Positions 5,616-56,650 of a stretch of 64,000 nt of DNA are shown one piece after another. The DNA comes from Sipunculus nudus. Lineage: Eukaryota; Annelida; Sipuncula; Golfingiida; Sipunculidae. The stretch spans positions 43,224,714 through 43,288,713 of the forward strand of contig CM049320.1 of the NCBI GenBank assembly GCA_026874595.1, read 5' to 3'. A program made the position numbers and the translations under genes. The stretch's first letter is position 1. Each line of letters starts with the position of its first letter. The notes below the pieces were generated by a model that was not told the origin of the DNA, did not search any database, and worked only from the letters and a program-made list of their open reading frames with translations.

Positions 5616-8135
5616 TTTATTATTTTAACAAATATTTTTCTATTTTTTCTTATGATCGATTGTGGCATTTCTTCCTTTTAAAAGTTTACAGCATGCATCA
5701 GTGATATTCATACCACAATTCAAATACATGTAGGTCCATCTGCTGAAAGTGGTTGTCTCATGATCTTGTTTGGTAAACAGATTTGTTGGATTAATGTGGT
5801 CAATCAGTTACGCAATTTATCATTACCACCCCTGCAATCAGGATAACTCACAAGATTCTTGTATTCTTGGCAAGGATTGAGGTATGGGTAAGACGTCAGA
5901 GCCTATATGTCAGATTCAAATAAACCTTTATTGGTTTCTTATAACATTTTTAAAAATTCCTGTAAAGATTGTAAGCAGGATATCTGTGAAATTTTAAGTG
6001 ACATGTTTCTTTAAATTCTAGCATGTCCATAGATATGAAGCAGAAGACAACATATTTAACTTTGTCAGGACCATGACTCGTGGGTGTGATCCTGATTGTA
6101 TATTGATCAATTAATGCAGCAGATCAGATTTGTCTTGAGTGGTTTCATGGATTGTCTAAAAATTAAGTTTACTCATAGGTCTTGGGGGGGGGGGGGGTGG
6201 AGGTTATACATTTCACAAGACTTTTGCTGTGACTCACAACTTTTGATTTCTTGAGAGTTGTTCCTAAGGAATCGTTATTCTTTGTGTGGCCTGGGACAGG
6301 TCAATTAATGTTATAAGACAAGTATATTGTATTGAATCATGTTACCGACTGGGTATACTGTGTCTGTTTAGGCATATTGTTTTTGTCAGAGTCAGGTTAG
6401 GCTGTCATCTGAATGTCATTTGTTATTATGGGTCATGTCAATTATTGTACAGGTCACTCAGGATATTTCAGCTGCTTATGAAGAAATCAAAGATCCCTCT
6501 TAAACTTTCGAGATTGAGTTCTGCACTCTGGATTGGCTAGGTTTCTGTTGCTGGTATCGGTGTGGGTTTGTATCCTGCCTGGCCTCTGTGGCTGTGGGTG
6601 CTGTGGCTTTCCCCAGGTCCTGGTATGGGTAAAACAGTGGCGGTCTCTCGCGGCTTCCTGCTTTTCTTGGTAGAATAACTTCTATTGGCTCCATCTAAAT
6701 TTCAAAATTAGGCTTAGGGGGTGCGCAGGGCTGAAGTCTTGACTACAGCAATCATTAGCTGCTCGATAAAGCAAAAACATCTTCAGTCAGTCCGGATATT
6801 TCAGCTTCATTGATTCATCTGCAACTTACTTTAGTTTGATCTTGAAAAGGTGAAATTGTCATTTTAATTTTACATAAAGAACTAAAGGGAATTAATGAAA
6901 ACTTGTTGACTAACAATATGAAATATAGCATGTCAGAAATCTAGTTGTCAGAGCAACCATTCTGCAATGTGGCCAGCCGAGATAGGCTCAAGTTTAGCCA
7001 AACAGAGTTTTAATACCTGATAACACCAAAAGTTGGTTCTCAAAAAGAAAACGGTACCCTACAAATAGGCCTATCTGTGGGCAGTCTAATGTTAGCAGGC
7101 CAACACCACTGTAAGATAGACATGTTATTATGTGATCAGGGACTAGCTATATACATGATATGATGTATTAATTAAGAATAAAACTATTTGCTTGAAATAA
7201 AATGGATACCTTGTAACATTTGTAAATTGACATGAACTCTTTTAAGCTAGCCAACATTTTGCCAAGCCGAGTCCAGCTGACCATTAAAGTCAGCCAAATT
7301 ATGTCCAAGTCAGCCACAGTGGTGTGGCTAAAACAGCTAGAGATATACCATAACATCGCTGTGAGAGATATATAATTTTATCAGTTAATTTCACAAGTTC
7401 TTTTAAACAATCATGACATGGCATAGATTATATTGTTTCAGGTCAGCCCTTGCTGTATCTGTTTACACAAACATTACTCACTCTGTTAAGTTATCAACAA
7501 AAATAATGATAGAATGTGTTGTTAGTGAGTGATAATCTATTGTGCAGTGAGTGGAAGTTCACAGCGGTGAATTTGTCAGGCCGCTTGGTCACAGACTCCC
7601 GTTACATAACACCCCCGCCTCCATCTGCCGGGGATTATCTGACAGAAGCCGCTTCCAGAGAGGAAGGCCTCCACAACCACAAAAATCTCTTCATGTTGAG
7701 AATCATAACTGGATGTATCCTGGGAGCATGTCCCTGCTGAGTGATACCTTGTATTCACTGTCACGACAGTCATCCTAAAATACATGTAACCATGACAACT
7801 CAATCACAGTAACAAAAATCACCACACATTATTAATGATAGATTATTTTATGTACCATCTGTATTACAGTGAATTACTCTGTATAGCATTACACCCAAAA
7901 TCGACATCTGGAGAAAATTCTGTCTATGTTGTACATCATGCCAAAAGGTCAGATTATGGACGGGTTATTGACACATTTGGTTGAACCCAGTTGTTCATTG
8001 CACAAAAGATAATTCTAAGACTGTAAAAAGAGGACTATATAATCAAAAACATTAGTAAAATTTCATTGCCTTCATCAGCTTGTTTAAGAGTTAAAGACCT
8101 GTGGCTTCTGTCATGCATGTTGACATAAACATTTT
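5616..8135. other. intronic sequence, mostly unique
   Basis: There is a 14-base G run at 6184-6197. Most of the rest is AT-rich and unique. A less AT-rich island at about 7540-7740 has short overlapping frames on both strands but no paired splice sites with a domain, so I treat it as a candidate conserved noncoding segment rather than an exon. Nothing else is seen. Confidence 0.4.
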
Positions 8136-11100
8136 GCGTATCTGGAGTAGTTTGGCTGGCACCTTGTGTAAGTATTTACCAGATCCATGTGTATCTGGTT
8201 GAGTTGGGCTGCCACCACTGTGTAACTGCCTTGTCTAAGTGTATGCCAGATCCATGCATATCTGGTTGAGTTGGGCTGGCACCACTATGTAACTGCCTTG
8301 TCTAAGTGTATGCCAGATCCATGCGTATCTGGATTAGATGGGCTGGCACCACTGCGTAACTGTCTTGTGTAAGTATATACCAGATCCATGCGTATCTGGG
8401 TGAGATGGGCTGGCACAAATGTGTAACTGCCTTGTCTAAGTGAATACCAGCTCCATGCGTATCTGGGTGAGTTGGGCTGGCACCACTGTGTAACTGCCTT
8501 GTGTAAGTATATACCAGATCCATGCATATCTGGTTGAGTTGGGCTGGCACCACTATGTAACTGCCTTGTCTAAGTGTATGCCAGATCCATGTGTATCTGG
8601 ATTAGATGGGCTGGCACCACTGTGTAACTGTCTTGTGTAAGTATATACCAGATCCATGCGTATCTGGGTGAGTTGGGCTGGCACCACTGTGTAACTGTTT
8701 TGTCTAAGTGAATACCAGCTCCATGCGTATCTGGGTGAGTTGGGCTGGCACCACTGTGTAAATGTCTTGTGTAAGTATATACCAGATCCATGCATATCTG
8801 GTTGAGTTGGGCTGGCACCACTATGTAACTGCCTTGTCTAAGTGTATGCCAGATCCATGTGTATCTGGATTAGATGGGCTGGCACCACTGTGTAACTGTC
8901 TTGTGTAAGTATATACCAGATCCATGCGTATCTGGGTGAGTTGGGCTGGCACCACTGTGTAACTGCCTTGTGTAAGTATTTACCAGATCCATGCATATCT
9001 GGTTGAGTTGGGCTGGCACCACTATGTAACTGCCTTGTCTAAGTGTATGCCAGATCCATGTGTATCTGGATTAGATGGGCTGGCACCACTGTGTTACTGT
9101 CTTGTGTAAGTATATACCAGATCCATGCGTATCTGGGTGAGTTGGGCTGGCACCACTGTGTAACTGCCTTGTGTAAGTATATACCAGATCCATGCGTATC
9201 TGGGTGAGTTGGGCTGGCACCACTGTGTAACTGTCTTGTGTAAGTAAATACCAGATCCATGCGTATCTGGGTGAGTTGGGCTGGCACCACTGTGTAACTG
9301 CCTTGTGTAAGTATATACCAGATCCATGCATATCTGGTTGAGTTGGGCTGGCACCACTATGTAACTGCCTTGTCTAAGTGTATGCCAGATCCATGTGTAT
9401 CTGGATTAGATGGGCTGGCACCACTGTGTAACTGCCTTGTGTAAGTATATACCAGATCCATGCGTATCTGGGTGAGTTGGGCTGGCACCACTGTGTAACT
9501 GCCTTGTGTAAGTATATACCAGATCCATGCATATCTGGTTGAGTTGTGCTGGCACCACTATGTAACTGCCTTGTCTAAGTGTATGCCAGATCCATGTGTA
9601 TCTGGATTAGATGGGCTGGCACAAATGTGTAACTGCCTTGTCTAAGTGAATACCAGCTCCATGCGTATCTGGGTGAGTTAGGCTGGCACCACTGTGTAAC
9701 TGCCTTGTGTAAGTATATACCAGATCCATGCATATCTGGTTGAGTTGGGCTGGCACCACTATGTAACTGCCTTGTCTAAGTGTATGCCAGATCCATGTGT
9801 ATCTGGATTAGATGGGCTGGCACCACTGTGTAACTGTCTTGTGTAAGTATATACCAGATCCATGCGTATCTGGGTGAGTTGGGCTGGCACCACTGTGTAA
9901 CTGTTTTGTCTAAGTGAATACCAGCTCCATGCGTATCTGGGTGAGTTGGGCTGGCACCACTGTGTAAATGTCTTGTGTAAGTATATACCAGATCCATGCA
10001 TATCTGGTTGAGTTGGGCTGGCACCACTATGTAACTGCCTTGTCTAAGTGTATGCCAGATCCATGTGTATCTGGATTAGATGGGCTGGCACCACTGTGTA
10101 ACTGTCTTGTGTAAGTATATACCAGATCCATGCGTATCTGGGTGAGTTGGGCTGGCACCACTGTGTAACTGTCTTGTGTAAGTAAATACCAGATCCATGC
10201 GTATCTGGGTGAGTTGGGCTGGCACCACTGTGTAACTGCCTTGTGTAAGTATATACCAGATCCATGCATATCTGGTTGAGTTGGGCTGGCACCACTATGT
10301 AACTGCCTTGTCTAAGTGTATGCCAGATCCATGTGTATCTGGATTAGATGGGCTGGCACCACTGTGTAACTGCCTTGTGTAAGTATATACCAGATCCATG
10401 CATATCTGGTTGAGTTGGGCTGGCACCACTATGTAACTGCCTTGTCTAAGTGTATGCCAGATCCATGTGTATCTGGATTAGATGGGCTGGCACCACTGTG
10501 TAACTGCCTTGTGTAAGTATATACCAGATCCATGCGTATCTGGGTGAGTTGGGCTGGCACCACTGTGTAACTGCCTTGTGTAAGTATATACCAGATCCAT
10601 GCATATCTGGTTGAGTTGGGCTGGCACCACTATGTAACTGCCTTGTCTAAGTGTATGCCAGATCCATGTGTATCTGGATTAGATGGGCTGGCACCACTGT
10701 GTAAATGTCTTGTGTAAGTATATACCAGATCCATGCGTATCTGGGTGAGTTGGGCTGGCACCACTGTGTAACTTCTTTGTCTAAGTGAATACCAGCTCCA
10801 TGCGTATCTGGGTGAGTTGGGCTGGCACCACTGTGTAAATGTCTTGTGTAAGTATATACCAGATCCATGCATATCTGGTTGAGTTGGGCTGGCACCACTA
10901 TGTAACTGCCTTGTCTAAGTGTATGCCAGATCCATGTGTATCTGGATTAGATGGGCTGGCACCACTGTGTAAATGTCTTGTGTAAGTATATACCAGATCC
11001 ATGGTATCTGGGTGAGTTGGGCTGGCACGACTGTGTAACTGCCTTGTGTAAGTATATACCAGATCCATGCATATCTGGTTGAGTTGGGCTGGCACCACTA

Positions 11101-13326
11101 TGTAACTGCCTTGTCTAAGTGTATGCCAGATCCATGTGTATCTGGATTAGATGGGCTGGCACCACTGTGTAAATGTCTTGTGTAAGTATATACCAGATCC
11201 ATGCGTATCTGGGTGAGTTGGGCTGGCACCACTGTGTAACTGCCTTGTGTAAGTATATACCAGATCCATGCATATCTGGTTGAGTTTGGCTGGCACCACT
11301 ATGTAACTGCCTTGTCTAAGTGTATGCCAGATCCATGTGTATCTGGATTAGATGGGCTGGCACCACTGTGTAACTGCCTTGTGTAAGTATATACCAGATC
11401 CATGCGTATCTGGGTGAGTTGGGCTGGCACCACTGTGTAACTGCCTTGTGTAAGTATATACCAGATCCATGCATATCTGGTTGAGTTGGGCTGGCACCAC
11501 TATGTAACTGCCTTGTCTAAGTGTATGCCAGATCCATGTGTATCTGGATTAGATGGGCTGGCACCACTGTGTAAATGTCTTGTGTAAGTATATACCAGAT
11601 CCATGCGTATCTGGGTGAGTTGGGCTGGCACCACTGTGTAACTGCCTTGTGTAAGTATATACCAGATCCATGCATATCTGGTTGAGTTGGGCTGGCACCA
11701 CTATGTAACTGCCTTGTCTAAGTGTATGCCAGATCCATGTGTATCTGGATTAGATGGGCTGGCACCACTGTGTAAATGTCTTGTGTAAGTATATACCAGA
11801 TCCATGCGTATCTGGGTGAGTTGGGCTGGCACCACTGTGTAACTGCCTTGTGTAAGTATATACCAGATCCATGCATATCTGGTTGAGTTGGGCTGGCACC
11901 ACTATGTAACTGCCTTGTCTAAGTGTATGCCAGATCCATGTGTATCTGGATTAGATGGGCTGGCACCACTGTGTAAATGTCTTGTGTAAGTATATACCAG
12001 ATCCATGCGTATCTGGGTGAGTTGGGCTGGCACCACTGTGTAACTGCCTTGTGTAAGTATATACCAGATCCATGCATATCTGGTTGAGTTGGGCTGGCAC
12101 CACTATGTAACTGCCTTGTCTAAGTGTATGCCAGATCCATGTGTATCTGGATGAGATGGGCTGGCACCACTGTGTAACTGTCTTGTGTAAGTATATACCA
12201 GATCCATGCGTATCTGGGTGAGATGGGCTGGCACCACTGTGTAACTGCCTTGTGTAAGTATATACCAGATCCATGCGTATCTGGGTGAGATGGGCTGGCA
12301 CCACTGTGTAACTGTCTTGTGTAAGTATATACCAGATCCATGCGTATCTGGGTGAGATGGGCTGGCACCACTGTGTAACTGTCTTGTGTAAGTATATACC
12401 AGATCCATGCGTATCTGGGTGAGATGGGCTGGCACCACTGTGTAACTGTCTTGTGTAAGTATATACCAGATCCATGCGTATCTGGTTGAGTTGGGCTGGC
12501 ACCACTATGTAACTGCCTTGTCTAAGTGTATGCCAGATCCATGTGTATCTGGATTAGATGGGCTGGCACCACTGTGTAACTGTCTTGTGTAAGTATATAC
12601 CAGATCCATGCATATCTGGTTGTGTTGGGCTGGCACCACTATGTAACTGCCTTGTCTAAGTGTATGCCAGATCCATGTGTATCTGGATTAGATGGGCTGG
12701 CACCACTGTGTAAATGTCTTGTGTAAGTATATACCAGATCCATGCGTATCTGGGTGAGTTGGGCTGGCACCACTGTGTAACTTCTTTGTCTAAGTGAATA
12801 CCAGCTCCATGCATATCTGGGTGAGTTGGGCTGGCACCACTGTGTAAATGTCTTGTGTAAGTATATACCAGATCCATGCGTATCTGGGTGAGTTGGGCTG
12901 GCACCACTGTGTAACTGCCTTGTGTAAGTATATACCAGATCCATGCATATCTGGTTGAGTTGGGCTGGCACCACTATGTAACTGCCTCGTCTAAGTGTAT
13001 GCCAGATCCATGTGTATCTGGATTAGATGGGCTGGCACCACTGTGTAAATGTCTTGTGTAAGTATATACCAGATCCATGCGTATCTGGGTGAGTTGGGCT
13101 GGCACCACTGTGTAACTTCTTTGTCTAAGTGAATACCAGCTCCATGCGTATCTGGGTGAGTTGGGCTGGCACCACTGTGTAAATGTCTTGTGTAAGTGTA
13201 TGCCAGATCCATGCGTATCTGGGTGAGTTGGGCTAGCACCACTGTGTAACTGCTTTGTCTAAGTGAATACCAGATCCATGCGTATCTGGATATGTTTGGC
13301 TGGCACCACTGTGTAACTGCCTTGTC
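8136..13326. repeat. 67-bp satellite-like array with higher-order structure
   Basis: About 77 head-to-tail copies of a 67-bp unit containing GGCTGGCACCACTGTGTAAC and CCAGATCCATGCGTATCTGG. The latter holds a small inverted repeat (CCAGAT, 8-nt loop, ATCTGG). Three main variants are visible: A (CTTGTCTAAGTGTATGCCAG with GTGTATCTGGATTAGAT), B (GCGTATCTGGGTGAGTT) and C (GCATATCTGGTTGAGTT followed by CCACTATG). They form higher-order units: a 268-bp period (4 units) at 8287 and 8555 and again near 9.8-10.3 kb, and a strict 201-bp period (3 units, A-B-C) from about 11097 to 12102. Minus-strand frames of 80-184 residues appear in all three frames because the unit lacks stops. They are not genes. Confidence 0.96.
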
Positions 13327-13704
13327 TCTGATTTCCTCTCTTCACTTATAATGGAGATGGTCCAATCTATCAGGGTAGTCTGGTAATAAACAGAATCACC
13401 CTCTCAGGTAAACAGGGGCGAGAGTCTGGTTAACAAAGGCATAAACACGGTCATTGTCTGGATGCCAGATGTCATTCCATTGACAGACTTGTAGAATTAA
13501 TGGTGGATGAGAACCTGGTTTATCTAGTGTACATCAAGTTCCTGGAGCCAGCCTTGAGGTCATGCTGATTGTAGAGTGAACAGGCTGCCAGTAGCCATCA
13601 GATCAGCGGTTACAGCACTCCAGTGTAATTTATGGTCATAATCCTAATTCACTTGTCTTATGGTGGTAATATCACCAACTGCTTTTTATCTGTGAAAACA
13701 CAGT
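13327..13704. other. unique spacer between two large arrays
   Basis: A 378-bp non-repetitive segment, less AT-rich than most of the intron, separates the 67-bp and 30-bp arrays. No gene or RNA is recognisable. It is one of several islands of complex sequence that could hold regulatory sites, but that is only a guess from composition. Confidence 0.4.
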
Positions 13705-15761
13705 CGGCCTGAGTGTAGAAAGACTGGACACAGGTGGCCTGAGTGTAGAAAGACTGGACACAGCCTGAATGTATGGAGACTGGACACAGGTGGCCTGAGT
13801 GTATGGAGACTGGACACAGGTGGCCTGAGTGAAGAAAGACTGGACACAGGTGGCCTGAGTGTAGAAAGACTGGACACAGGTGGCCTGAGTGTATGGAGAC
13901 TGGATACAGGTGACCTGAGTGTAGAAAGACTGGACACGGGTGGCCTGAGTGTATGGAGACTGGACACAGGTTGCCTGAGTGTAGAAAGACTGGACACAGG
14001 TGGCCTGAGTGTAGAAAGACTGGACACAGGTGGCCTGAGTGTAGAAAGACTGGACACAGCCTGAATGTATGGAGACTGGACACAGGTGGCCTGAGTGTAT
14101 GGAGACTGGACACAGGTGGCCTGAGTGTAGAAAGACTGGACACAGGTGGCCTGAGTGTAGAAAGACTGGACACAGGTGGCCTGAGTGTATGGAGACTGGA
14201 TACAGGTGACCTGAGTGTAGAAAGACTGGACACGGGTGGCCTGAGTGTAGAAAGACTGGACACAGGTGGCCTGAGTGTAGAAAGACTGGACACAGGTGGC
14301 CTGAGTGTATGGAGACTGGACACAGGTGGCCTGAGTGTAGAAAGACTGGACACGGGTGGCCTGAGTGTAGAAAGACTGGACACAGGTGGCCTGAGTGTAT
14401 GGAGACTGGACACAGGTGCCCTGAGTGTAGAAAGACTGGACACAGGTGGCCTGAGTGTATGGAGACTGGACACAGGTGGCCTGAGTGTATGGAGACTGGA
14501 CACAGGTGACCTGAGTGTAAAAGGACTGGACACAGGTGGCCTGAGTGTATGGAGACTGGACACTGGTGGCCTGAGTGTAGAAAGACTGGGCATAGGTGGC
14601 CTGAGTGTAGAAAGACTGGACACAGGTGGCCTGAGTGTATGGAGACTGGACACAGGTGGCCTGAGTGTATGGAGACTGGACACAGGTGACCTGAGTGAAA
14701 AAGGACTGGACACAGGTGGCCTGAGTGTAGAAAGACTGGACACAGGTGGCCTGAGTGTATGGAGACTGGACACAGGTGGCCTGAGTGTAGAAAGACTGGA
14801 CACAGGTGGCCTGAATGTAGAAAGACTGGGCATAGGTGGCCTGAGTGTATGGAGACTGGACACAGGTGGCCTGAGTGTAGAAAGACTGGACACAGGTGGC
14901 CTGAATGTAGAAAGACTGGACACAGGTGGCCTGAGTGTAGAAAGACTGGACACAGGTGGCCTGAATGTAGAAAGACTGGACACAGGTGGCCTGAGTGTAT
15001 GGAGACTGGACACAGGTGACCTGAGTGTAAAAGGACTGGACACAGGTGGCCTGAGTGTATGGAGACTGGACACTGGTGGCCTGAGTGTATGGAGACTGGG
15101 CACTGGTGGCCTGAGTGTAGAAAGACTGGGCATAGGTGGCCTGAGTGTAGAAAGACTGGACACAGGTGGCCTGAGTGTATGGAGACTGGACACAGGTGGC
15201 CTGAGTGTATGGAGACTGGACACAGGTGGCCTGAGTGTAGAAAGACTGGACACAGGTGGCCTGAGTGTATGGAGACTGGACACAGGTGGCCTGAGTGTAG
15301 AAAGACTGGACACAGGTGGCCTGAGTGTATGGAGACTGGACACAGGTGGCCTGAGTGTATGGAGACTGGACACAGGTGGCCTGAGTGTAGAAAGACTGGA
15401 CACAGGTGGCCTGAGTGTAGAAAGACTGGACACAGGTGGCCTGAGTGTAGAAAGACTGGACACAGGTGGCCTGAGTGTAGAAAGACTGGACACAGGTGGC
15501 CTGAGTGTAGAAAGACTGGACACAGGTGGCCTGAGTGTAGAAAGACTGGACACAGGTGGCCTGAGTGTAGAAAGACTGGACACAGGTGGCCTGAGTGTAG
15601 AAAGACTGGACACAGGTGACCTGAGTGTAGAAAGACTGGACACAGGTGGCCTGAGTGTAGAAAGACTGGACACAGGTGGCCTGAGTGTAGAAAGACTGGA
15701 CACAGGTGGCCTGAGTGTATGGAGACTGGACACAGGTGGCCTGAGTGTATGGAGACTGGAC
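13705..15761. repeat. 30-bp minisatellite open in several frames
   Basis: About 68 copies of a 30-bp unit (CTGAGTGTAGAAAGACTGGA then CACAGGTGGC) with a frequent variant replacing TAGAAAGAC by TATGGAGAC. Register is kept almost perfectly. Two units near 13761 and 14057 share the same 4-bp deletion and lie 296 bp apart inside a longer matching block, which shows a segmental duplication of about 10 units. Because 30 is a multiple of three and the unit is free of stops in four frames, the array reads as frames of about 618 codons on the plus strand and about 690-700 codons in three minus-strand frames. Such simultaneous openness is expected of the unit and argues against any one being a protein. 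Confidence 0.96.
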
Positions 15762-16775
15762 TTGGTGTATCATTCACAGATTCCTCTGACCTGTTGTATC
15801 ATTCACTGATCCCTCTGACTTGTTGTATCATTCACAGATCCCTTAGACTTGGTGTATCCTTCACTGATCCCTCTGACTTGTATCATTCACAGACCCCTCT
15901 GACTTGGTGTTACATTTACTGATCCCTCTCACCAGGTGTACCATTCACAGATTCCTTTGACTTGGAGAATCATTCACAGACCCCTCTGATTTGGTGTGTC
16001 ATTCACAGACCCCTCTGACTTGGTGTATCATTCACTGATCCCTCTGACTTGGTGTATCATTCACAGATCCCTCTGACTTGATGTATCATTCACTGATCCC
16101 TCTGACTTGATGTATCCTTCATGGATCCCTTTGATCCAGTGTATCATTCACAGACCCCTCTGACCTGGTGTATCATTCACTGATCCCTCTGACCTGGTGT
16201 ATCATTCACTGATCCCTCTGACTTGGTGTATCATTCACTGATCCCTCCGACTTTGTGTATCATTCACAGACCTCTCTGGCTTGTATCATTCACAGACCCC
16301 TCTGACTTGTATCATTCACTGATCCCTCTGACTTGGTGTATCATTCACTGATCCCTCTGACTTGGTGTATCATTCACAGACCCCTCTGACTTGTTGTATC
16401 ATTTACAGACCCCTCTGACTTGGTGTATCATTCACAGACCCCTCTGACTTGGTGTGTTATTCACTGATCCCTCTGACTTGGTGTATAATTCACAGACCCC
16501 TCTGACTTGGTGTATCATTCACATATCCCTCAGACTTGGTGTATCATTCACTGATCCCTCTGACTTGGTGTACAATTCACTGATCCCTCTGACTTGGTGT
16601 ATCATTCACTGATCCCTCTGACTTGTTGTATCATTCACAGGCCCCTCTGACTTGGAGTATCATTCACTGATCCCTCTGACTTGGTGTATCATTCACTGAT
16701 CCCTCTGACATGGTTGTCATTCACTGATCCCTCTGAATTGGTTGTCATTCACTGATCCCTCTGACTTGGTGTATT
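15761..16775. repeat. 29-bp minisatellite
   Basis: About 35 copies of a 29-bp unit (TGATCCCTCTGACTTGGTGT, then ATCATTCAC), with common variants CACAGACCCC and TGTTGTATC. It follows the 30-bp array with no spacer: the last GGAGACTGGAC at 15751-15761 runs straight into TTGGTGTATC. Copies are more diverged than in the 30-bp array and decay at the 3' end. Confidence 0.94.
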
Positions 16776-22393: not shown

Positions 22394-24512
22394 ATTTAGC
22401 AGCAGTACCTTTAATCATTCCTGTACAATTTTAGACATACCCTCAAAAGTTAAAGTGACCTGCATCAGGTATAACAGGTTTGTTTTAGGTTTTTATCAAG
22501 GATTCATTTGGAGGTTTTCCATACTGAGACCTGATTTCTTAGATCCTGACTCTACAACAGGAATTTTGATATGTAATCAGACATCATGAGCTGCACTGTG
22601 TGTGTGTGTGTGTGTGTGTGTAGCTTGGTGAGCAGGTAGATTGTGGCTGAGCCGTGTGTAATATTGTGTGCGGCCTGAGTAACCTGGGCTCGTACACCTG
22701 CTAGCTTCATCATCTGTGGATATACAAGTCAGGTAGCAGGGTGGGGAGCAGTATAGCAGATAATTTATATACTACCAGAATAGCTGCAACTATATTTACC
22801 TTAATATAAACCCTGAATAATCTGCTTGTACAGTCTTCCATCTGATGGGGGAACTTAACCCACATGTATAGGAACTGATTGGATAACTGTTCCAAACCAC
22901 TAGACAAATACATGAACAAGAGCTTTAAAAACTGAATACAATGGTTAAAAACATGTACTAAATGTATGAGGTTATTTTGCAAATAATGTTGTAATATTAT
23001 GTAGCGTGTTACAAATAGCAACATTTCAGACTTGCAGTACTCGTAAATTTACTTTTGTTTTGTAATGTACAGCATATGTGCTTATGTGCACATTACAATA
23101 ATATGAAGCATGTACAATAATTCTCAATGGATAACTTTTATAATTTATGATTAATACACTGCTTAAAAATTGGAAAAAAAGAAGTTAAAAGTGATATAAT
23201 GAAGGGTTTATCTTTTCTTGAATTATGCTTTTAATATGAAATACATCATTTTGCACTTTTATGCTCAAGTAGATCTAGTTTGGTAAGAGTATGATGTTGG
23301 TTATTGGCATGGAGTGTCCTTCATGGAGCTGTTGTTTTGAGCTGGTACCAGTTTTTTACAGCAGGGTCAGGTTACACAGTCATATTGATCAGCAATGAAA
23401 AACTGCTTCAGAATGCAACCATTTTAGTCTCTGACTAAAGATTTGATAAAATGATCCGATAAAGCGGTTCAATATCAGCGCCTGCAGCCTGTGTTATTTC
23501 AAGAGGCTCAGAAGAGTTATTAGTTCTCTAGTTGTATGTAACCTTGTTTATTTTCAATTAGCAGTGTTATATGAGTTGGTGGAGTTTGTCAAGGGGATTA
23601 GGCAATTGTCAGTTTTTTAAGGGTCTAGGGAATGTATGATGAAGACTACACAACACAGATGATACGATGAAGGTCATGGTCTCCAGATGTCATAAAAATT
23701 TTGAAATGGAGAAAGTAATTAAGAATGTTCTCTTTAACAGGACTCCTGATTGTAGCCAGGAATCATATATTTGCCTCGCCAGTTGTGCTTGGTATGAAAA
23801 TTGTCCACTGACTTTATTAGTAAGCTTATTTTCATGGGTTGACTTGACTCGATCAGCAAGGGTTTACTGGCTTCACATGATTCAAAGGAATTAATGTTAA
23901 TTTAGTAATTTTACAAAGTACCTACAGGTAATTTGTTATAGACATGGGTACTATCTATTTAAATATTATACAATGTATATTTTATGTCTTTATAACTAGT
24001 CCTTTATTAAATACTTTAGTTAACTATCTTTGCTGTTACTTTCACATCAAAGGCTCACTGTGGTGTTTGTGTCTACATTTGACACACCAAGGCACTATAT
24101 ACAAATTGTTTGGGGGAATTATCCCATGCAATTCATTTACTGACAGGTATGTGCATGTAAAATGCTCATTTAAATATATTCAAGTTAATCCTGGATGCAC
24201 AAACTTAATTACCACAGTTCTTGGCATAAGTGTGTTCTGATAATAAATTATACAATTGTGTTCAAATTAATTGCAAATTATTTTGTTGTTTATTCTTTCC
24301 ATTTAAAAGTGATCTCATTATGGCTTCTACTGCTATAGCTGTAATATTTGTTGTTATGAAGAAAATGGTTTATTTCTCAATTGTGGCTTTCAAAATATGT
24401 TTTATAAAATAATCTGGAAAGTGTAAATTGAAATTAATGCCTGATGTGATTGTTGCTTTTCTTAAACATCCATGTGACATTAATCCATAAAATTATCAGC
24501 CAATAGCAATAT
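22394..24512. other. unique intronic sequence with a TG microsatellite
   Basis: A (TG)n tract lies at about 22596-22621. The remainder is unique and strongly AT-rich. Short open frames (22710-23024 minus, 23944-24240 plus) show no domain, signal or splice context that would support a gene. Confidence 0.4.
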
Positions 24513-25928
24513 TCTGGTACACAGATATAAACCAAGAAGTATGAGGTAAGCCATGGTCCTCAGATATAAACCAAGTTGTGTGAGGTAAGCCATGGTCCTC
24601 AGATATAAACCAAGTAGTGTGAGGTAAGCCATGGTCCTCAGATATAAACCAAGTTGTGTGAGGTAAGCCATGGTCCACAGATATAAACCAAGTTGTGTGA
24701 GGTTAGCCATGGTCCACAGATATAAACCAAGTTGTGTGAGGTAAGCCATGGTCCACAGATATAAACCAAGAAGTATGAGTTGAGCCATGGTCCTCAGATA
24801 TAAACCAAGTTGTGTGAGGTAAGCCATGGTCCACAGATATAAACCAAGAAGTATGAGTTGAGCCATGGTCCTCAGATATAAACCAAGTTGTGTGAGGTAA
24901 GCCATGGTCCTCAGATATAAACCAAGTAGTGTGAGGTTAGCCTTGGTCCACAGATATAAACCAAGTTGTGTGAGGTAAGCCATGGTCCTCAGATATAAAC
25001 CAAGTTGTGTGAGGTCAGCCATGGTCCACAGATATAAACCAAGCTGTGTGAGGTAAGCCATGGTCCACAGATATAAACCAAGTTGTGTGAGGTAAGCCAT
25101 GGTCCACAGATATAAACCAAGTTGTGTGAGGTAAGCCATGGTCCACAGATATAAACCAAGAAGTATGAGTTGAGCCATGGTCCTCAGATATAAACCAAGT
25201 TGTGTGAGGTAAGCCATGGTCCTCAGATATAAACCAGGTAGTGTGAGGTTAGCCTTGGTCCACAGATATAAACCAAGTAGTGTGAGGTAAGCCATGGTCC
25301 TCAGATATAAACCAAGTTGTGTGAGGTAAGCCATGGTCCTCAGATATAAACCAAGCTGTGTGAGGTAAGCCATGGTCCACAGATATAAACCAAGTTGTGT
25401 GAGGTAAGCCATGGTCCACAGATATAAACCAAGTTGTGTGAGGTAAGCCATGGTCCACAGATATAAACCAAGTTGTGTGAGGTAAGCCATGGTCCACAGA
25501 TATAAACCAAGTTGTGTGAGGTAAGCAATGGTCCACAGATATAAACCAAGTTGTGTGAGGTAAGCCATGGTCCACAGATATAAACCAAGTAGTGTGAGGT
25601 TAGCCTTGGTCCACAGATATAAACCAAGAAGTATGAGTTGAGCCATGGTCCTCAGATATAAACCAAGTTGTGTGAGGTAAGCCATGGTCCACAGATATAA
25701 ACCAAGAAGTATGAGTTGAGCCATGGTCCTCAGATATAAACCAAGTTGTGTGAGGTAAGCCATGGTCCACAGATAGTAACCAAGTAGTGTGAGGTTAGCC
25801 TTGATCCACAGACATTAACCAAGTAGTGTGAGGTTAGCCATGGTCCACAGATATAAACCAAGTTGTGTGAGGTAAGCAATGGTCCAAGGATATAAACCAA
25901 GTTGTGTGAGTTAAGCCATGGTCCACAA
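24513..25928. repeat. 39-bp minisatellite with a 427-codon minus-strand frame
   Basis: About 36 copies of a 39-bp unit (AGCCATGGTCCACAGATATA, AACCAAGTTGTGTGAGGTA) with a variant carrying AAGTATGAGTTG and CCTCAG. Because 39 bp is 13 codons, the minus strand reads as a 427-codon frame (24480-25763) of a hydrophobic 13-residue repeat, MAYLTQLGLYLRT-like. The frame starts inside the array, and its downstream end is a short unique tail with no domain. A second minus frame is also partly open. I regard it as a by-product of unit length rather than a protein, although it would be worth checking against RNA. Confidence 0.95.
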
Positions 25929-41994: not shown

Positions 41995-43605
41995 TTGTAT
42001 CCGCCTAAATCAGAGTGGAACGGGTGAAGTGTTGCATATCAGCATGGATGTCTGCAGCCAAATTGTGTATGTTGGTTGCGCTACCTACCAAAAAATCCAG
42101 AAAGCCGTCCAAGTTGTATACATATGCAAAATTTAAGGCAGATAAGTCAAACCACTATATTGTATATGAGTGATTTTTGCCCTTGGCAGACAAACAGATG
42201 GACGCTGTGCAAAAAAGGGTTGCAGGTGGCGCCACCAGTTTAGCGTATGATAAAGAGCTTTGTGAGAACTATACACATGCAAAATTTTGGCCCAATTGGT
42301 CAAACGGTTCCCTAGATATGAGCTTGGATGTCTGCAGCGTAAACTTGATTGTAGGTGGCGCCACCTGTCATAAAATCAGAAAAGCTATCCAGGATGTATA
42401 AGCATGCAGAATTTCAGGTGAATTAGTCAAACCACTGCAGAGATATGAGTGATTTTAACCCAAGGCAGACAAACAGCTGGACACTGTGCAAACATGGTTG
42501 CAGGTGGCGCCACCATTTTTTGTGTATGTTATAAAGCTCTCCAAGGGCTACATTTGTGCAAAAAAATTTTCCTGATCAATCAAACGGTTCCTGAGATATG
42601 GGCTTGGATGTCTGCAGCGTAAACATGAATGTAGGTGGCGCCACCTGTCATAAAATCAGAAAAGCTATCCAGGATGTATACGCATGCCAAATTTCAGGTG
42701 AATTAGTCAAGTCACTGCAGAGATATGAGTGATTTTAACCCAAGGCAGACAAACAGATGGACACTGTACAAACATGGTTGCAGGTAGCGGCACCATTTTT
42801 GGTGTATGTTATAAAGCTCTCCAAGGGCTACATTTGTGCAAAAGAATTTTCCTGATCGGTCAAACGGTTCCCGAGATATGAGCTTGGATGTCTGCAGCGT
42901 AAACGTGAATGTAGGTGGCGCCACCTGTCATAAAATCAGATAAGCTATCCAGGATGTATACGCATGCCAAATTTCAGGTGAATTAGTCAAGTCACTGCAG
43001 AGATATGAGTGATTTTAACCCAAGGCAGACGAACAGATGGACACTGTGCAAACATGGTTGCAGGTGGCACCACCATTTTTGGTGTATGTTATAAAGCTCT
43101 CCAAGGGCTACATTTGTGCAAAAGAATTTTCCTGATCGGTCAAACGGTTCCCGAGATATGAGCTTGGATGTCTGCAGCGTCAACGTGAATGTAGGTGGCG
43201 CCACCTGTCATAAAATCAGAAAAGCTATCCAGGATGTTTGCGCATGCCGAATTTCAGGTGAATTAGTCAAGTCACTGCAGAGATATGAGTGATTTTAACC
43301 CAAGGCAGACGAACAGATGGACACTGTGCAAACATGGTTGCAGGTGGCGCCACCATTTTTGGTGTATGTTATAAAGCTCTCCGAGGGCTACATTTGTGCA
43401 AAAAAATTTTCCTGATCGGTCAAACGGTTCCCGAGATATGTGGGTTTATGTGTGGAAACAGACGCACAAACGGACGCAGAGCGCAGAGGAAAGGTCAGAG
43501 GTCAAAACAAAATCGGGGCGCAGCAGTTCACATGTGACCCGAATATAATCCCGGGTTTCGGAAAATTCCGCCCAGCGGTTACGGAGGAGTTCTCCGGACA
43601 CCTAC

Positions 43606-47332: not shown

Positions 47333-47373
<41 letters not shown>
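47333..47373. repeat. (TA)n microsatellite at the left edge of the foldback element
   Basis: About 20 TA units end directly at TGTCAGAGACG. A shorter (TA)n tract lies at 49540-49561 at the other edge, so the element either inserted in a TA tract or the tracts grew from a TA target duplication. Confidence 0.9.
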
Positions 47374-47377
<4 letters not shown>

Positions 47378-47415
47378 AGAGACGAGATTGAAATCCAGGC
47401 GGATTTTAAATTCGC

Positions 47416-47448
47416 CTAGACGAGATTGCGATTGTGATCTCGCCTAGG
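47416..47448 (+). repeat. 33-bp cassette in the left arm, same orientation as its right-arm counterpart
   Basis: The segment starts CTAGACGAGATTGCGATTGT and ends GATCTCGCCTAGG. In a true inverted arm the right side should carry its reverse complement. Instead 49467-49499 carries the identical sequence in the same orientation, so the cassette was flipped in one arm. Confidence 0.85.
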
Positions 47449-48193
47449 CGAGATTGCAATTGTGATCTCGGCTAGACAGATTTTAAACTCGCCTAGACGA
47501 GATCACAATCGCAATCTCGCCTAGGCGAGATTAAAATCCATCATGGAGCAGGCCAGGATTTTAATCTCGCCTAGGCGAGTTTAAAATCCGTCTGGTGTCA
47601 TCCAGGCGAGTTTAAAATCTGCCTGATATTACTTAGGCGAGTTTAAAATCTGCCTAGGCGAGATTAAAAGAGTGATCTGATCTAATTTCCTAATATATTA
47701 AGCATTGTAACTGACATATGAAAGATGTTTTCAGTCCGATTTTCAATATTTTAACACAATGGTTATATATAGTTAAAAGGTAATATATTTATTTATATTT
47801 ACAGAATATTATAGTATTAATGTAATAATTAACTTTTTTACAGTAATGTAATAATTATTCATGTGATAATTAACATTAATTTTGGAAACAGAATTATGAA
47901 ATAGATATTTGATTATTATTTGCTCCTTTGATGTGTTTCATGTGATCTGTAACAGCATCCTTATCATACCAATTATTTGCTAAACACTAATTAATCTTTA
48001 TTTTTTTTCTCCAGTTTTCTTAACAACCTTGTGATTGTAAATATCACTAATAATTTTTACCAAAAATAATTTGTAATTGTATTTAAATATATGGCAATTA
48101 GAGAGTAACAAGAGGTATATTGAAGCACACTTATGAGATATTATGAAGAGCAAATCTGGAGGAAAAAGTCATCCACTTGCATATTGAATCAAT

Positions 48194-48226
48194 CATAGAT
48201 AGATAGATAGACAGATAGATAGATTA
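48194..48226. repeat. (ATAG)n microsatellite inside the foldback loop
   Basis: About eight ATAG units with one CAG interruption lie in the AT-rich central loop of the foldback element. Confidence 0.9.
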
Positions 48227-48945
48227 GTCTAGTTAGCTATTACTTCACTATTTAATGAGTATATTACACATCAACAAAAACAATCATCCTATTTGATAAT
48301 TCTTACAGGACAAACAGAACAAATTAGTTGGTTGATCTAGTTCAAATGTTTCTTTTCACCCAGGTATTCAACACTCAACAGTCAAAACATGTACACTTAT
48401 GGTACAAAATATGCAGGGTATCAGTATTTATGATGGACTTTGATACACCATCCTTTTTTTTGGTAATTAAACATCATATGAGGAAAAGTAAAAGTTGATA
48501 CACAGATGTATGCATGTGAATATTTCTTTGTCTTATTTAGTCTTTTCTTAAAATGTATATAATATTCTTCTGATCTTTTTTTTTTTAATTTTTTGTGAGG
48601 CATTTTGTGAAGCTTCAATATTTATGTAGACTGTGTTACAAGATAACTGTCTTTTTTTGGACAGTATTATATCATATAAGAAAAAATATGATTTCTAGAT
48701 TCATAGAGTAATAGATCATTTATGCATGTGAACATACACTGAATTATATTGATAAAAAATAAATGAGATATGTTCCTTTTGTCTTTTTAAAATACTACAT
48801 TACTAATATTACTAATACCAGTTTCCCTTCAAATTAATATTGACAACAAAATTATTATGTAAATCAAATATCATTTTAATATGCCATAAACAATTCCAAT
48901 GTAAGTTTCTTATTACCTAGTTTATAAATAGAAATATAAAATAAA

Positions 48946-49150
48946 AAAATTAATGTTAATTATTACATAAATATTATAATATTCTGTAAATATTATTAAA
49001 TATATATTACTTGTGAACTTTACATAACCATATTAATAAAAAATATATAATATAAAATATTCCATTTCCAAAATTAATGTTAAATATTACATTAATAATA
49101 TAATATTCTGTAAATAGTAATAAATATATTACTTGTGAACTATACATAAC
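48946..49150. repeat. two-unit AT-rich repeat near the right arm
   Basis: AATTAATGTTA, ATATTCTGTAAATA and TATTACTTGTGAACT occur twice about 128 bp apart. The left side of the loop (47805-47888) has the complementary sequences, so this duplication affects the inner part of the inverted arms. Confidence 0.7.
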
Positions 49151-49540
49151 TATTTAGTGTTAAAATATTGAAAATCTGACTGAAAACATCTTTCCTAAGT
49201 CAATTACAATGCATAATTTATCGGGAAATTAGATCAGATCACTATTTTAATCTCGCCTAGGCAGATTTTAAACTCGCCCAAGTGATATAAGGCAGATTTT
49301 AAACTCGCCTGGATGACACCAGACAGATTTTAAACTCGCCTAGGCGAGATTAAAATCCTGGCCTGCTCCATGATGGATTTTAATCTCGCCTAGGCGAGAT
49401 TGCGATTGTGATCTCGTCTAGGCGAGTTTAAAATCTGTCTAGCCGAGATCACAATTGCAATCTCGCCTAGACGAGATTGCGATTGTGATCTCGCCTAGGC
49501 GAATTTAAAATCCGCCTGGATTTCAATCTCGTCTCTGACA

Positions 49541-52161
49541 TATATATATATATATATATATCTGACTATAAAAGCTTTATGGACTCAAGTTAATAGTCAG
49601 AATTATTATTAATCTAACTTTATTACTCCTTTGAACACTAGTTATTTACTATGAGTATCTTTGTTTATACTTATTGTATCAGACCCCACTATATACTGCA
49701 GCAAGTGTGTACTGCGGGATGGCAGGAATGTAGGCTGTGGTACAATGATTCCTGTATTGTTATGTAACTTGTGTTTATGACTGATATTTGACTGATATGT
49801 TCAGTAGATCATAGTGTTGACATTCTTTGGTCATCAGATCTGTAAAGTAAAGCTAGTAGATCTGGTCCTGTTCGTATTATTCTCTGCTTTGATACCCCAT
49901 GTAATCAAAGCTTTTTCCCAAAGGGTTTACCAGTGCGGTCACACAAGGTGTCCTTTCACAGTCTGAATAAGGCTATTACAATGTACTGGCAAGAAAGCCC
50001 AGCACAGAAAATGTGTAAACTGGATGAGACTTACATTATCAGTGATAACAAATAATAAATCTAGAATTTTCATATACTTAACACTCAAGCTGGTAAAAAC
50101 AATACAACTAAGTAACCTGACAGTGATGAATGAGGTGGTATGTTGTGATGAATTGACTTAAATTCAGGAATTATCAATTACAAGTTATTTAGGAATCTTA
50201 ACACCTCAACTCTAAGCTGTTCATTCAGTGATGGGTAAAAAATAATGGGAAGAAGAAATGAAACAATGCACCTAGTATTAATTCATTTAGTCAGCATATA
50301 ATGTATGATGTAATAACTTCTTTGATTTGGGTAAATTAGCATGACCACAAAGATATGATACCAAAAATGAGATTAGTTTTTTGTGTCTAGCTTGTAATAA
50401 AAAAAAAAAAAGGCCGAGCAGCTGGGATGGTTAAGTGGGTAACAGACGTGACAAAATCAGTCATTTGTATTTATTCAGAAATCGTTGTGTGTATCTGTGA
50501 AGGCACAATAAACAAGGTCCAGCCCAACTGCACAGAATAAAGTCAGATTTTATAGGTCACATCAATCTTTGTTTATCTCTGTAAAGCAGTAGCTGGCACA
50601 ATTATACTGCAGACAGGAAACAAAAAAGTCTGCTTGAACTGTTTAGCAGATAATGCACAAACAAAACCACTTTACAGACTACAATGCTGAGATGCCAGAC
50701 CTGGGGATGTTTAGTACTACAGTTGCTGTCTGGTGGTTCACAGCTCTCTGCTCAGGCCAGACACAGATATTTTAAGGCTTAGAATCTTTTAGTTTTATGG
50801 TTGATTGTATTGATGCTTGTCTTATATCTGATCATTCGATGGTTTGGTTATCCTTTACATCTGGTTTCTTAAAAAATACATTTTTTGTCTGATTGAATGT
50901 GACATTATGTTTACCAATACCAGGTAAATAAGGGCTAGCTGTTCACTAAGGAGCTGTGTCTTGCCAGTAGATATTGCTGTGTGTATTTTAGAAAAGTTAA
51001 GATTGGAATCAGCCTGTTGAGTTTCCAAGGTGATATATATGTAGTTAATACAACACCAGTACTTCTAATGTCGTACTGTTCTATGAGCTACTGTACCTAC
51101 ATAATTAACTTGTCAACTGTTAAGTGATGAGTTCCTTTTAACTTACTAAAAATATGCCCTTTTTAAATGACAATCTCTGTTTCAGTATTCAGTAATATGA
51201 TTTAAGTCTGGTATGATACATAGCAATATGTAAGAGACCTCATCGCTAAGGTGATCAGTTTAATTACTTGGAATCCCATAAGTTTCCAGAAAAACAATGT
51301 CCTGACCAGTGATACCACCAAACAATTAATTTGGGATTCATTAAAATGGAAACAACACAAAACAGATAAAGTCTGTGTGACTCAATTAAGATTCCAAAAT
51401 TGTTAAAAAAAAGTTTTTTAAATTCATCAACAGATCTTTCCAAAGAGTGTTTCATTGTCATCTCCTGTCCATGTATTGACTGGTGTGGCATACACAGCTG
51501 ATGGAGGGGTCAGAGTCAGTCTCCATGAAGGATCAGTGATACCTTTCAGATTAAGAATGTATTCTGTCAGCCCTTGTGAACTCTCATCTGGGTATCATTT
51601 ACCTTGGATGCTGTATTTACTTTGATATATGTTTTCACCAGCAAGGGCCACTTAAACCTTTCCGTTTCTCTTAGGAGTTTACCTGTTTTTTCTTGTTAAT
51701 GAAGAATGCCAGATGAGTTTGTAGTGTTTTATTAGTGTGAGGGATTTTGACGTAGCATGTTGGATGATAATGATGATGCCACCCTCGATGCACTGGTAAA
51801 ACATGTCAGGGGATGATATATGTGGTGAGCACTAAACACAATGTTTCAAACTAAATGTTTACAATAAGGGGTACAGTGGAAAACTTTTGCCTGGGCTAGT
51901 ACAAAGAATAAGGCACAAAGTTCTATAGATGGGAAGGATCGAACCTAATGGATTCAGGTAAGAAGGCTCTAGATCAGAAATGAAGATGCCTAAAAAGCTT
52001 GTCAAAATTTATTAACTCATGGAGAGGCCATCATATATATGCCTTCAACAATCAGCATTGAACAAATTCTTTTGTCCTTCACAAACAAGATTTTATATAT
52101 GTCTCTCGTGCATGAAATGCCATTTTCATTTGCTATGGAAGGATTGTGGGGGTGGTTTCCA
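49541..52161. other. TA tract then unique intronic sequence
   Basis: After (TA)n to 49561 the sequence is unique and AT-rich. An A-run at 50399-50411 followed by a tRNA-like GGGATGGTTAAGTGGGTAAC is too short to call a SINE. Short frames (51264-51491 minus, 52039-52251 plus) have no domain. Confidence 0.4.
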
Positions 52162-55200: not shown

Positions 55201-56650
55201 AGCTCAGCTGACTATAAGTCATCTGAGCTATAGTCGTGGTCCATTGTCCGTCCGTCTGTCTGTCCGTCCGTCCGTCCGTAGATGTGGCACGTTTTGAAAC
55301 CGTAAGACCTAGGAATCCAAAATTCAGCATAATGTTAGATGTCCCCAAGATCTCCTACCAAGCCGAAAACTGGGTCTTTGCGACTTCATTCCTTTGAGAA
55401 ATTAAGGAAAAACCTCAATTTTTTATTAAAAACCTATTTTCACACTTAAGAACTGCCTAATATCAAAACCACTCATCTGTTTTTCCTCATATTTCCTATA
55501 AATAATCCTCTATATAATTCCTATGTACATGCCAGAAATTAGGTCTGTATTATTTAATTTAAAAAAGTTATGGGCCCAAACATAATGCATTTTGTAAATA
55601 ATCAGGAAAGAAATTTTATCACTTAACACAAAACTTGTTAAAGCTAAGCTCTTTTTTTCCAGTAATATTACTTTTATTAATCAAAATTAAATTTTATACC
55701 CAAAATTAGATCAAAATCTTTTAAATTTTTAAAAATATTAGAAAAAATAAAAAATTGGTACCTTAAATTTTGCCCAACTTTGACCATGGCACGTTTTTTT
55801 GCTGTAACTGCTGTGGATTTAATTTTCACAGCATGTTTTTTGTTAGCATTACAACTGTTAACACCAAAAATTTGAAACCAGTTGATCAAAAACTGTAGAT
55901 TTTATTCAAGTTTTCAAGCACCATGTCACTTATTGCCAGTGTTATGCAGTTTGCTAGAGCTCAGCTCCTGAGCTTCAGCTCTAAGTTCCTTAAATTTGGC
56001 ATACAGTTAGATTTCTCCAAAATCCCCTACCATGCCAAGAATTTGGTCACTAGGACTTAATTCCTTTGAGATATCAATGAAAAACTTCATTTTTCCATTA
56101 AAAACCCAATGTTACACTTTAAGACTGCCTAATATCAAAACCACTGATCTGACTTTGATCATATATAATATACATATTTTTCTATACATTCACTATGCAC
56201 ATGCCAGAAATGATGTCAGTATTGTATTTTTTTTTTAAGTTATGGGCCCAAACATAATGCACTTTGTAAAAAAATCAAGAAATATATTTACTCCCTTAAC
56301 AAGGGCATTGCTGAAGCTAGAGATCTTTTTTGTCAGGGATGTAACATTATTTAATCAAGATTCAATTGAATACCCAAAATTAGTTCTGAATTTTTCAAAT
56401 TTTATAAGTTATTAGTATAAATATAAAATTAGTACCTTAAATTTTGCCCAACTGTGACCATTCCACGTTTGTTTCCCGTGAGCACTGTTGATATAATTTT
56501 CATATCATGCACACATAAGGATTTCAGCTTTTTAGTTTAGAAAGCTGAAAGAAATTTGCCAAATATTGTAGCTTTTATTAATGTTTTTTATGAGACCCTG
56601 TCAGACTTTGGCTCTCTCCAGCCCCTCTTGAGTCACCTGTATGTTGACCT
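55201..56650 (+). mobile_element. hairpin-headed element with two 660-bp internal repeats
   Basis: It starts with a long hairpin at 55201-55229 (AGCTCAG, TGACT, ATA, AGTCA, CTGAGCT, with one mismatch), followed by GTCCGTCCGTCTGTCTGTCC (55246-55283). The body has two diverged copies about 660 bp apart that share CCTTTGAGA, AACTGCCTAATATCAAAACCA, TGGGCCCAAACATAATGCA and TTAAATTTTGCCCAACT. The right end is placed near GAGTCACCTGTATG at about 56630. There is no protein; short frames are artefacts. The structure parallels the 33066-34605 element with a longer core unit. Confidence 0.65.

Follow-up and report, generated by a model that had tools for sequence, protein, structure and literature searches.

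A foldback element with nested palindromic arms in Sipunculus nudus, provisionally placed as a Ginger2-like transposon

The window analysed here is a stretch of 64,000 nucleotides from Sipunculus nudus (GenBank assembly GCA_026874595.1, contig CM049320.1, positions 43,224,714 to 43,288,713 of the forward strand). It holds a complete foldback element that begins with TGTCAGAG, finishes with CTCTGACA and is flanked by (TA)n at both ends (Table 1). The original prediction of a foldback element with arms of about 0.5 kb and matching ends was exact in its coordinates: the 46 outermost bp of the two arms are identical, and the outer 330 bp differ by 5.2% (about 95% identity). Arm pairing extends over 414 nt at 94% complementarity (30 nt of flank per side counted in) and then over 79 nt at 87%. 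The left arm is rich in palindromes in its outer ~300 bp and AT-rich in its inner part, and in the common 2.17-kb form of the element the arms measure about 460–480 bp. The TATA tetranucleotides next to the ends sit in (TA)n and are therefore not diagnostic; the length of the target duplication was set by other copies. As no gene was shown around the element, the intron setting that had been presumed for it is without support; 10 window ORFs of 101–182 aa, a subset of the ORFs in the window, gave no Pfam family at E≤0.01. Long tandem arrays at 8000–16000 and 24480–25814 contain coincidental open frames in several frames (e.g. at 13.6–15.8 kb), and a dispersed repeat at 55239–55877 recurs in L006, within two foldback copies (L078, L081) and in the sequence that follows the arm of L101 (L095/L102).

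Table 1. Parts of the foldback element and its immediate flanks, in window coordinates.
Feature	Position	Strand	Basis
Complete foldback element, 2,167 bp, TGTCAGAG...CTCTGACA	47374..49540	.	sequence and arm alignment
TATA, left copy of 4-bp target duplication	47370..47373	.	
TATA, right copy of 4-bp target duplication	49541..49544	.	
Left arm (terminal inverted repeat)	47374..47836	+	arm pairing and alignment
Right arm (terminal inverted repeat)	49076..49540	-	arm pairing and alignment
AT-rich middle without recognisable gene	47837..49075	.	sequence and Pfam search
Exact CTCGCCTAGGCGAG palindromes (n=5)	47439..47452, 47516-47529, 47566-47579, 49335-49348, 49385-49398	.	
Second-level palindrome, left arm: 60-nt arms 88% complementary, 19-nt loop	47401..47539	.	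pairing, centre 47484, fold
Second-level palindrome, right arm: 60-nt arms 82% complementary, 19-nt loop	49375..49513	.	pairing; nearby centre 49430
Left-arm spacer unit GACGAGATTGCGATTGTGATCTCGCCTA, standard orientation	47419..47446	+	arm comparison
Right-arm counterpart of GACGAGATTGCGATTGTGATCTCGCCTA, inverted between flanking palindromes	49468..49495	-	arm comparison

When up to three mismatches were allowed, 13 palindromes of the CTCGCCTAGGCGAG kind were found in the window and 12 of these lie within the element (5 exact, 7 with 1–3 mismatches), whereas 100 shufflings of the window gave 0.21 on average and never more than 2. Together with a second level of about 139 bp they bear out the hierarchical arm of small palindromes that had been predicted. 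The spacers between the palindromes are indeed of two kinds, a ATTGCGATTGTGAT type and a GTTTAAAATC type, but the regular alternation ascribed to them did not hold. The best score in an ungapped scan of the element for palindrome centres was 30, and none of 20 two-base block shuffles exceeded 11. For a 300-nt stretch of the left arm the predicted fold has −90.9 kcal/mol (200 shuffles, mean −34.6; z −15.3), with an outer stem that spans ~200 bp and encloses two hairpins. The palindromes nest at several levels: the 14-bp units, the ~139-bp hairpins, the ~200-bp outer stem of the predicted fold and the whole 2.17-kb element. Both forms originally proposed as alternatives, one long duplex or many local hairpins, are supported by the sequence and by predicted folding.

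The genome (1.43 Gb, 153 contigs) contains 1,481 exact occurrences of the CTCGCCTAGGCGAG palindrome and 662 of the terminal 16-mer (334 + 328), with 0 for the reversed control in both cases. The proposed check for other copies therefore succeeded, and the terminal 16-mers amount to the equivalent of ~330 elements or more. Viral contigs, searched with an exact 18-mer, gave no match. Among the first 100 listed ends, which cover contig C1 and part of C2, there are 38 left–right pairs with at most 10 kb between their ends, which leaves 24 ends without a partner. The pairs span 2,050–2,300 bp in 21 cases, less in 9 (194–1,866 bp) and more in 8 (3,032–8,120 bp). Other full copies comprise six at 2,160–2,273 bp and twelve more at 2,056–2,184 bp. 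Seven full copies diverge from each other by a median of 3.1% (range 2.3–3.9%). The left and right arms of the same copy differ on average by 4.9% (7 copies), more than left arms (2.6%) or right arms (3.6%) differ between copies, which indicates that the copies descend from a master whose arms already differed. Homogenisation of the arms within an element was rejected on the same comparison.

The ends were collected by the motif TGTCAGAGACGAGATT with 2 mismatches allowed; seven loci that duplicate the window or a different locus were excluded. The resulting 56 ends have an outward flank consensus of ATRTATA, followed at the element border by TGTCAG. TATA forms the last four flank bases at 50 of the 56 ends (30 of the 36 outside (TA)6 runs), and position −5 is A or G in all ends except one (55/56). 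Every collected end starts with TGTCA (56/56) and agrees with TGTNR, an agreement that is partly circular for a motif-based collection. The duplication, which lies directly outside the motif, supports its first base as the true end. The target duplication, whose definition had been proposed as a check, was found at a length of 4 bp. It matches in 10 of 11 pairs of a first set, five of the ten lying in long (TA)n and being uninformative; the sole mismatching pair is L013, a rearranged copy. A second set comprised 20 copies, 12 of which had their other end in the expected 451-bp interval; the duplication matched in 10 of these 12, the failures being L031 (one base off) and L036 (one base off, with a second end 155 bp upstream). 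Informative duplications, outside (TA)n, include TATT/TATT in L015 and L032 and GTATA...TATAC in L016 and L023.

The joined flanks of 18 copies, of which L016 and L049 are the same place, were compared with the available DNA. Empty sites, also proposed as a check, were recovered for two insertions, L086 (317 bp) and L088 (523 bp). Both are inserted within a few bp of one position in a dispersed repeat with 280-bp spacing. The window carries four empty units of this host repeat at ~42340–43302, and weaker ones at 42061 and near 28.4–29.1 kb. The six comparisons of empty-site joins stem from these two insertions and are not independent; dropping 4 bp scored best in five of them (in L088-L076 by only 73 vs 72 for 3 bp), 5 bp scored 65 vs 64 for 4 bp in L088-W42330, and 2 bp remained below 4 bp in all six. 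The empty units read GTATAC (two window units) and GTATAA or TTATAA (two other units compared). Flank alignments of L085 were discounted as evidence of an empty site, as their only matches were L085 itself and further copies of the element together with the adjoining flanks.

Compact, composite, deleted and inverted forms accompany the common element. The compact copy L049 (C1:21180957) is a near-perfect palindrome of 348 bp, with ~166-bp arms that differ by 3 mismatches and a ~16-bp loop; L050 (C4:92746052) has 347 bp, with 7 mismatches and one 1-bp gap between its arms, counted on the alignment. TATA flanks both copies on both sides. Each arm of the large element has one half of the compact palindrome as its outer part, together with the loop, the beginning of the second half and additional repeats. 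In two copies (L017:1498-1671 and L101:26-199) the arm breaks off at position 174, which is where the compact palindrome has its centre. An insert at element positions 831–844 is common to L025, L033 and L035 (its far end confirmed in L025 and L033 only), and the presence of three copies with an insert at one site implies that composites multiplied; a further insert at about 1208–1210 is common to L078 and L081. Interior sequence was sampled for six of the 24 unpaired ends, and in two it corresponds to the middle of the element. In the other four, the element gives way to other sequence after ~575 bp (L098) or to dispersed repeats after 174 bp (L101), is reduced to 66 bp (L100), or forms a shortened copy about 0.5 kb long (L099). 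A head-to-tail dimer at L085:64-1647 (C1:76776963-76778546) consists of two 791-bp deleted copies 2 bp (CA) apart with CATA flanks; it may derive from an intermediate, either circular or dimeric, or from tandem duplication at a later time. In L090 (C1:110646380-110646700) the flank and the first ~80 bp of the arm are tandemly duplicated, with ends 167 bp apart, a rearrangement of the end. The right arm of the window's element carries one spacer inversion, for which a local assembly error is possible: its 28-bp unit matches the inverted unit with 0 mismatches, differs from the standard unit at 8 positions and carries an asymmetric marker base along. The GACGAGATTGCGATTGTGATCTCGCCTA unit has the standard orientation in 55 of 56 arms, this right arm being the only inverted case, and spacer flipping was dropped as a general behaviour.

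No autonomous copy with a transposase was found among the copies read. Seven of the eight pairs over 3 kb (all but the 3,032-bp one) were read whole or in part and contain no ORF >108 aa there; each of these, as well as L024, is the common element interrupted by other sequence. Pfam matches above the cut-off were absent for all twelve ORFs taken from the element middle, from inserts and from flanks, one of which had two sub-threshold matches. Among the twelve are four window ORFs (48–66 aa) and the 99-aa ORF of copy L014, all from the middle, and the longest L080 ORFs (125 and 140 aa). The 125-aa frame (L080:458-832) lies in sequence that interrupts copy L039 and presumably resembles the endonuclease part of a Penelope-like retroelement. 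On contig C1, 23 integrase-like Pfam matches stood against 72 ends, the nearest at 19 kb, a comparison of low power with 150 of 4,779 PF00665 candidates scored. PF24764 gave 40 matches, and the element's motifs were absent from the 2 loci examined. The five best PF00665 matches among the 150 scored (E 1e-24 to 3e-27 vs 1e-17) are on contigs C106, C110, C118, C128 and C135, which are perhaps bacterial contamination.

Long inverted repeats built of internal subrepeats, with a snap-back structure, are known from FB of Drosophila and TU of sea urchin, and the present element shares this foldback architecture. It differs from both in that its subrepeats are palindromes nested at several levels and in that its ends, duplication and target are Ginger2-like. 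On these three sequence features the family, which the original prediction did not recognise, can provisionally be placed, and the element is probably a non-autonomous foldback DNA transposon of Ginger2/TDD type, moved by an integrase-like transposase. Ginger2 elements are described with TGTNR ends, RTATAY targets and duplications of 4 bp, or of 5 bp in the case of TDD-4 and TDD-5 (PMC2836005; Bao et al. 2010). The copies in S. nudus share these ends, the 4-bp duplication expected of metazoan Ginger2/TDD members and the RTATAY preference, and they depart from the CCGG or CCGT duplication of Ginger1, as TATA stands at 50 of 56 ends. A non-autonomous member, Ginger2-1N1_NV (252 bp), is listed in the same source (PMC2836005), and Repbase practice, as outlined in PMC4455052, is to class non-autonomous elements largely by ends and duplication. 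The arms of the large form, at ~460–480 bp, exceed the inverted repeats of 45–297 bp in the published table, which is a range described there and not a stated requirement (PMC2836005); those of the compact form have ~166 bp. Further differences are the nested palindromes of the arms and the transposase with its H2C2 finger and DDE domain, which was not recognised in the copies read here. Membership in Ginger2 is therefore probable rather than demonstrated, given an arm length outside the published range and a search in which the family-defining transposase was not found. The placement was set by published descriptions of Ginger2 ends, duplications and targets. Among the open-licence PMC papers searched none combines Ginger2 with foldback, and ginger and foldback co-occur in PMC10794571 and PMC6431247.

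The main rival to this placement is a foldback transposon moved by another TG...CA integrase-like transposase, of IS481EU or an unnamed group, that shares 4-bp duplications and TATA-like targets by coincidence. It draws support from the TGT...ACA or TNT...AYA ends of IS481EU families and the 4-bp duplications of some of them (PMC10045372), the former in common with our element, and from the copies and candidates examined here, in which no Ginger2 transposase was found. However, IS481EU was characterised from parabasalids, its inverted repeats are mostly <50 bp and many copies have 15–16-bp duplications, as described in PMC10045372, and RTATAY is the target preference published for Ginger2 (PMC2836005); we consider this rival unlikely. 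A cut-and-paste element of the Tc1/mariner kind, with a TA duplication and lodged in microsatellites, might be suspected from the many copies, including that of the window, that sit in (TA)n, a context compatible with every TA-based duplication. Outside microsatellites, however, the duplication has 4 bp instead of 2 (TATT/TATT in L015 and L032, CATA around the L085 dimer), and the empty-site joins favour 4 bp over 2 bp in all six comparisons from two insertions, so that such an origin is highly improbable.

The arms could in principle serve a host locus kept for double-stranded RNA, a Dicer or ADAR substrate as originally suggested, given that they are near-complementary and that one arm is predicted to fold strongly on itself. 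Against this, hundreds of dispersed copies with target duplications suit a mobile element, and a host function of this type appears very unlikely; double-stranded RNA could instead be a side effect of the mobile element. The caution attached to the original prediction, that the structure might have no other copy and be an artefact of assembly, is disposed of by the 662 ends and 1,481 palindromes with controls of 0. An assembly artefact or a one-off inverted duplication is further contradicted by the similar length of 21 of the 38 end pairs and by the differing flanks that the copies read with flanks occupy outside (TA)n, which leaves it a negligible probability.

For the Ginger2-type transposon that we favour, we propose that an integrase-like DDE transposase of the Ginger2 kind, supplied in trans, would recognise the TGTCAGAG ends and join the TG...CA ends to staggered cuts in ATRTATAYAT-like targets, which would yield the 4-bp, mostly TATA, duplication. 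The palindromes may serve as sites at which transposase dimers bind. The model for this is piggyBac, where each of the two transposase monomers contributes a domain that binds the palindrome (PMC11707139). In our element the palindromes might just as well be inhibitory, as is the extra subterminal site of piggyBat in the same description (PMC11707139). Both systems share subterminal palindromes with our element, but they belong to another superfamily and have far fewer motifs than found here (PMC11707139). The nested arms may have arisen by repeated inverted duplication, through template switching between palindromes or hairpin repair, perhaps during transposition, and the spacer inversion in the window would be one visible event of the template-switching class. 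A more speculative reading, which we regard as rather improbable, takes the compact 348-bp palindrome as the mobile core, with arms that grow and are remodelled via hairpin or circular transposition intermediates. It would explain the many-level nesting, the spacer inversion, the two deletion junctions at position 174 and the head-to-tail dimer with its 2-bp separation, and, if true, it would make the family a Ginger2-type element with a previously undescribed self-palindromising evolution.

If the Ginger2 placement is right, transposition of this type tolerates, or drove, very large palindromic ends, and a single genome contains hundreds of little-diverged copies together with compact, composite, deleted and inverted derivatives. 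This series is suited to asking how foldback arms form and whether nested palindromes bind transposase dimers, and the potential of the arms for double-stranded RNA makes the family a possible, as yet unproven, test case for silencing.
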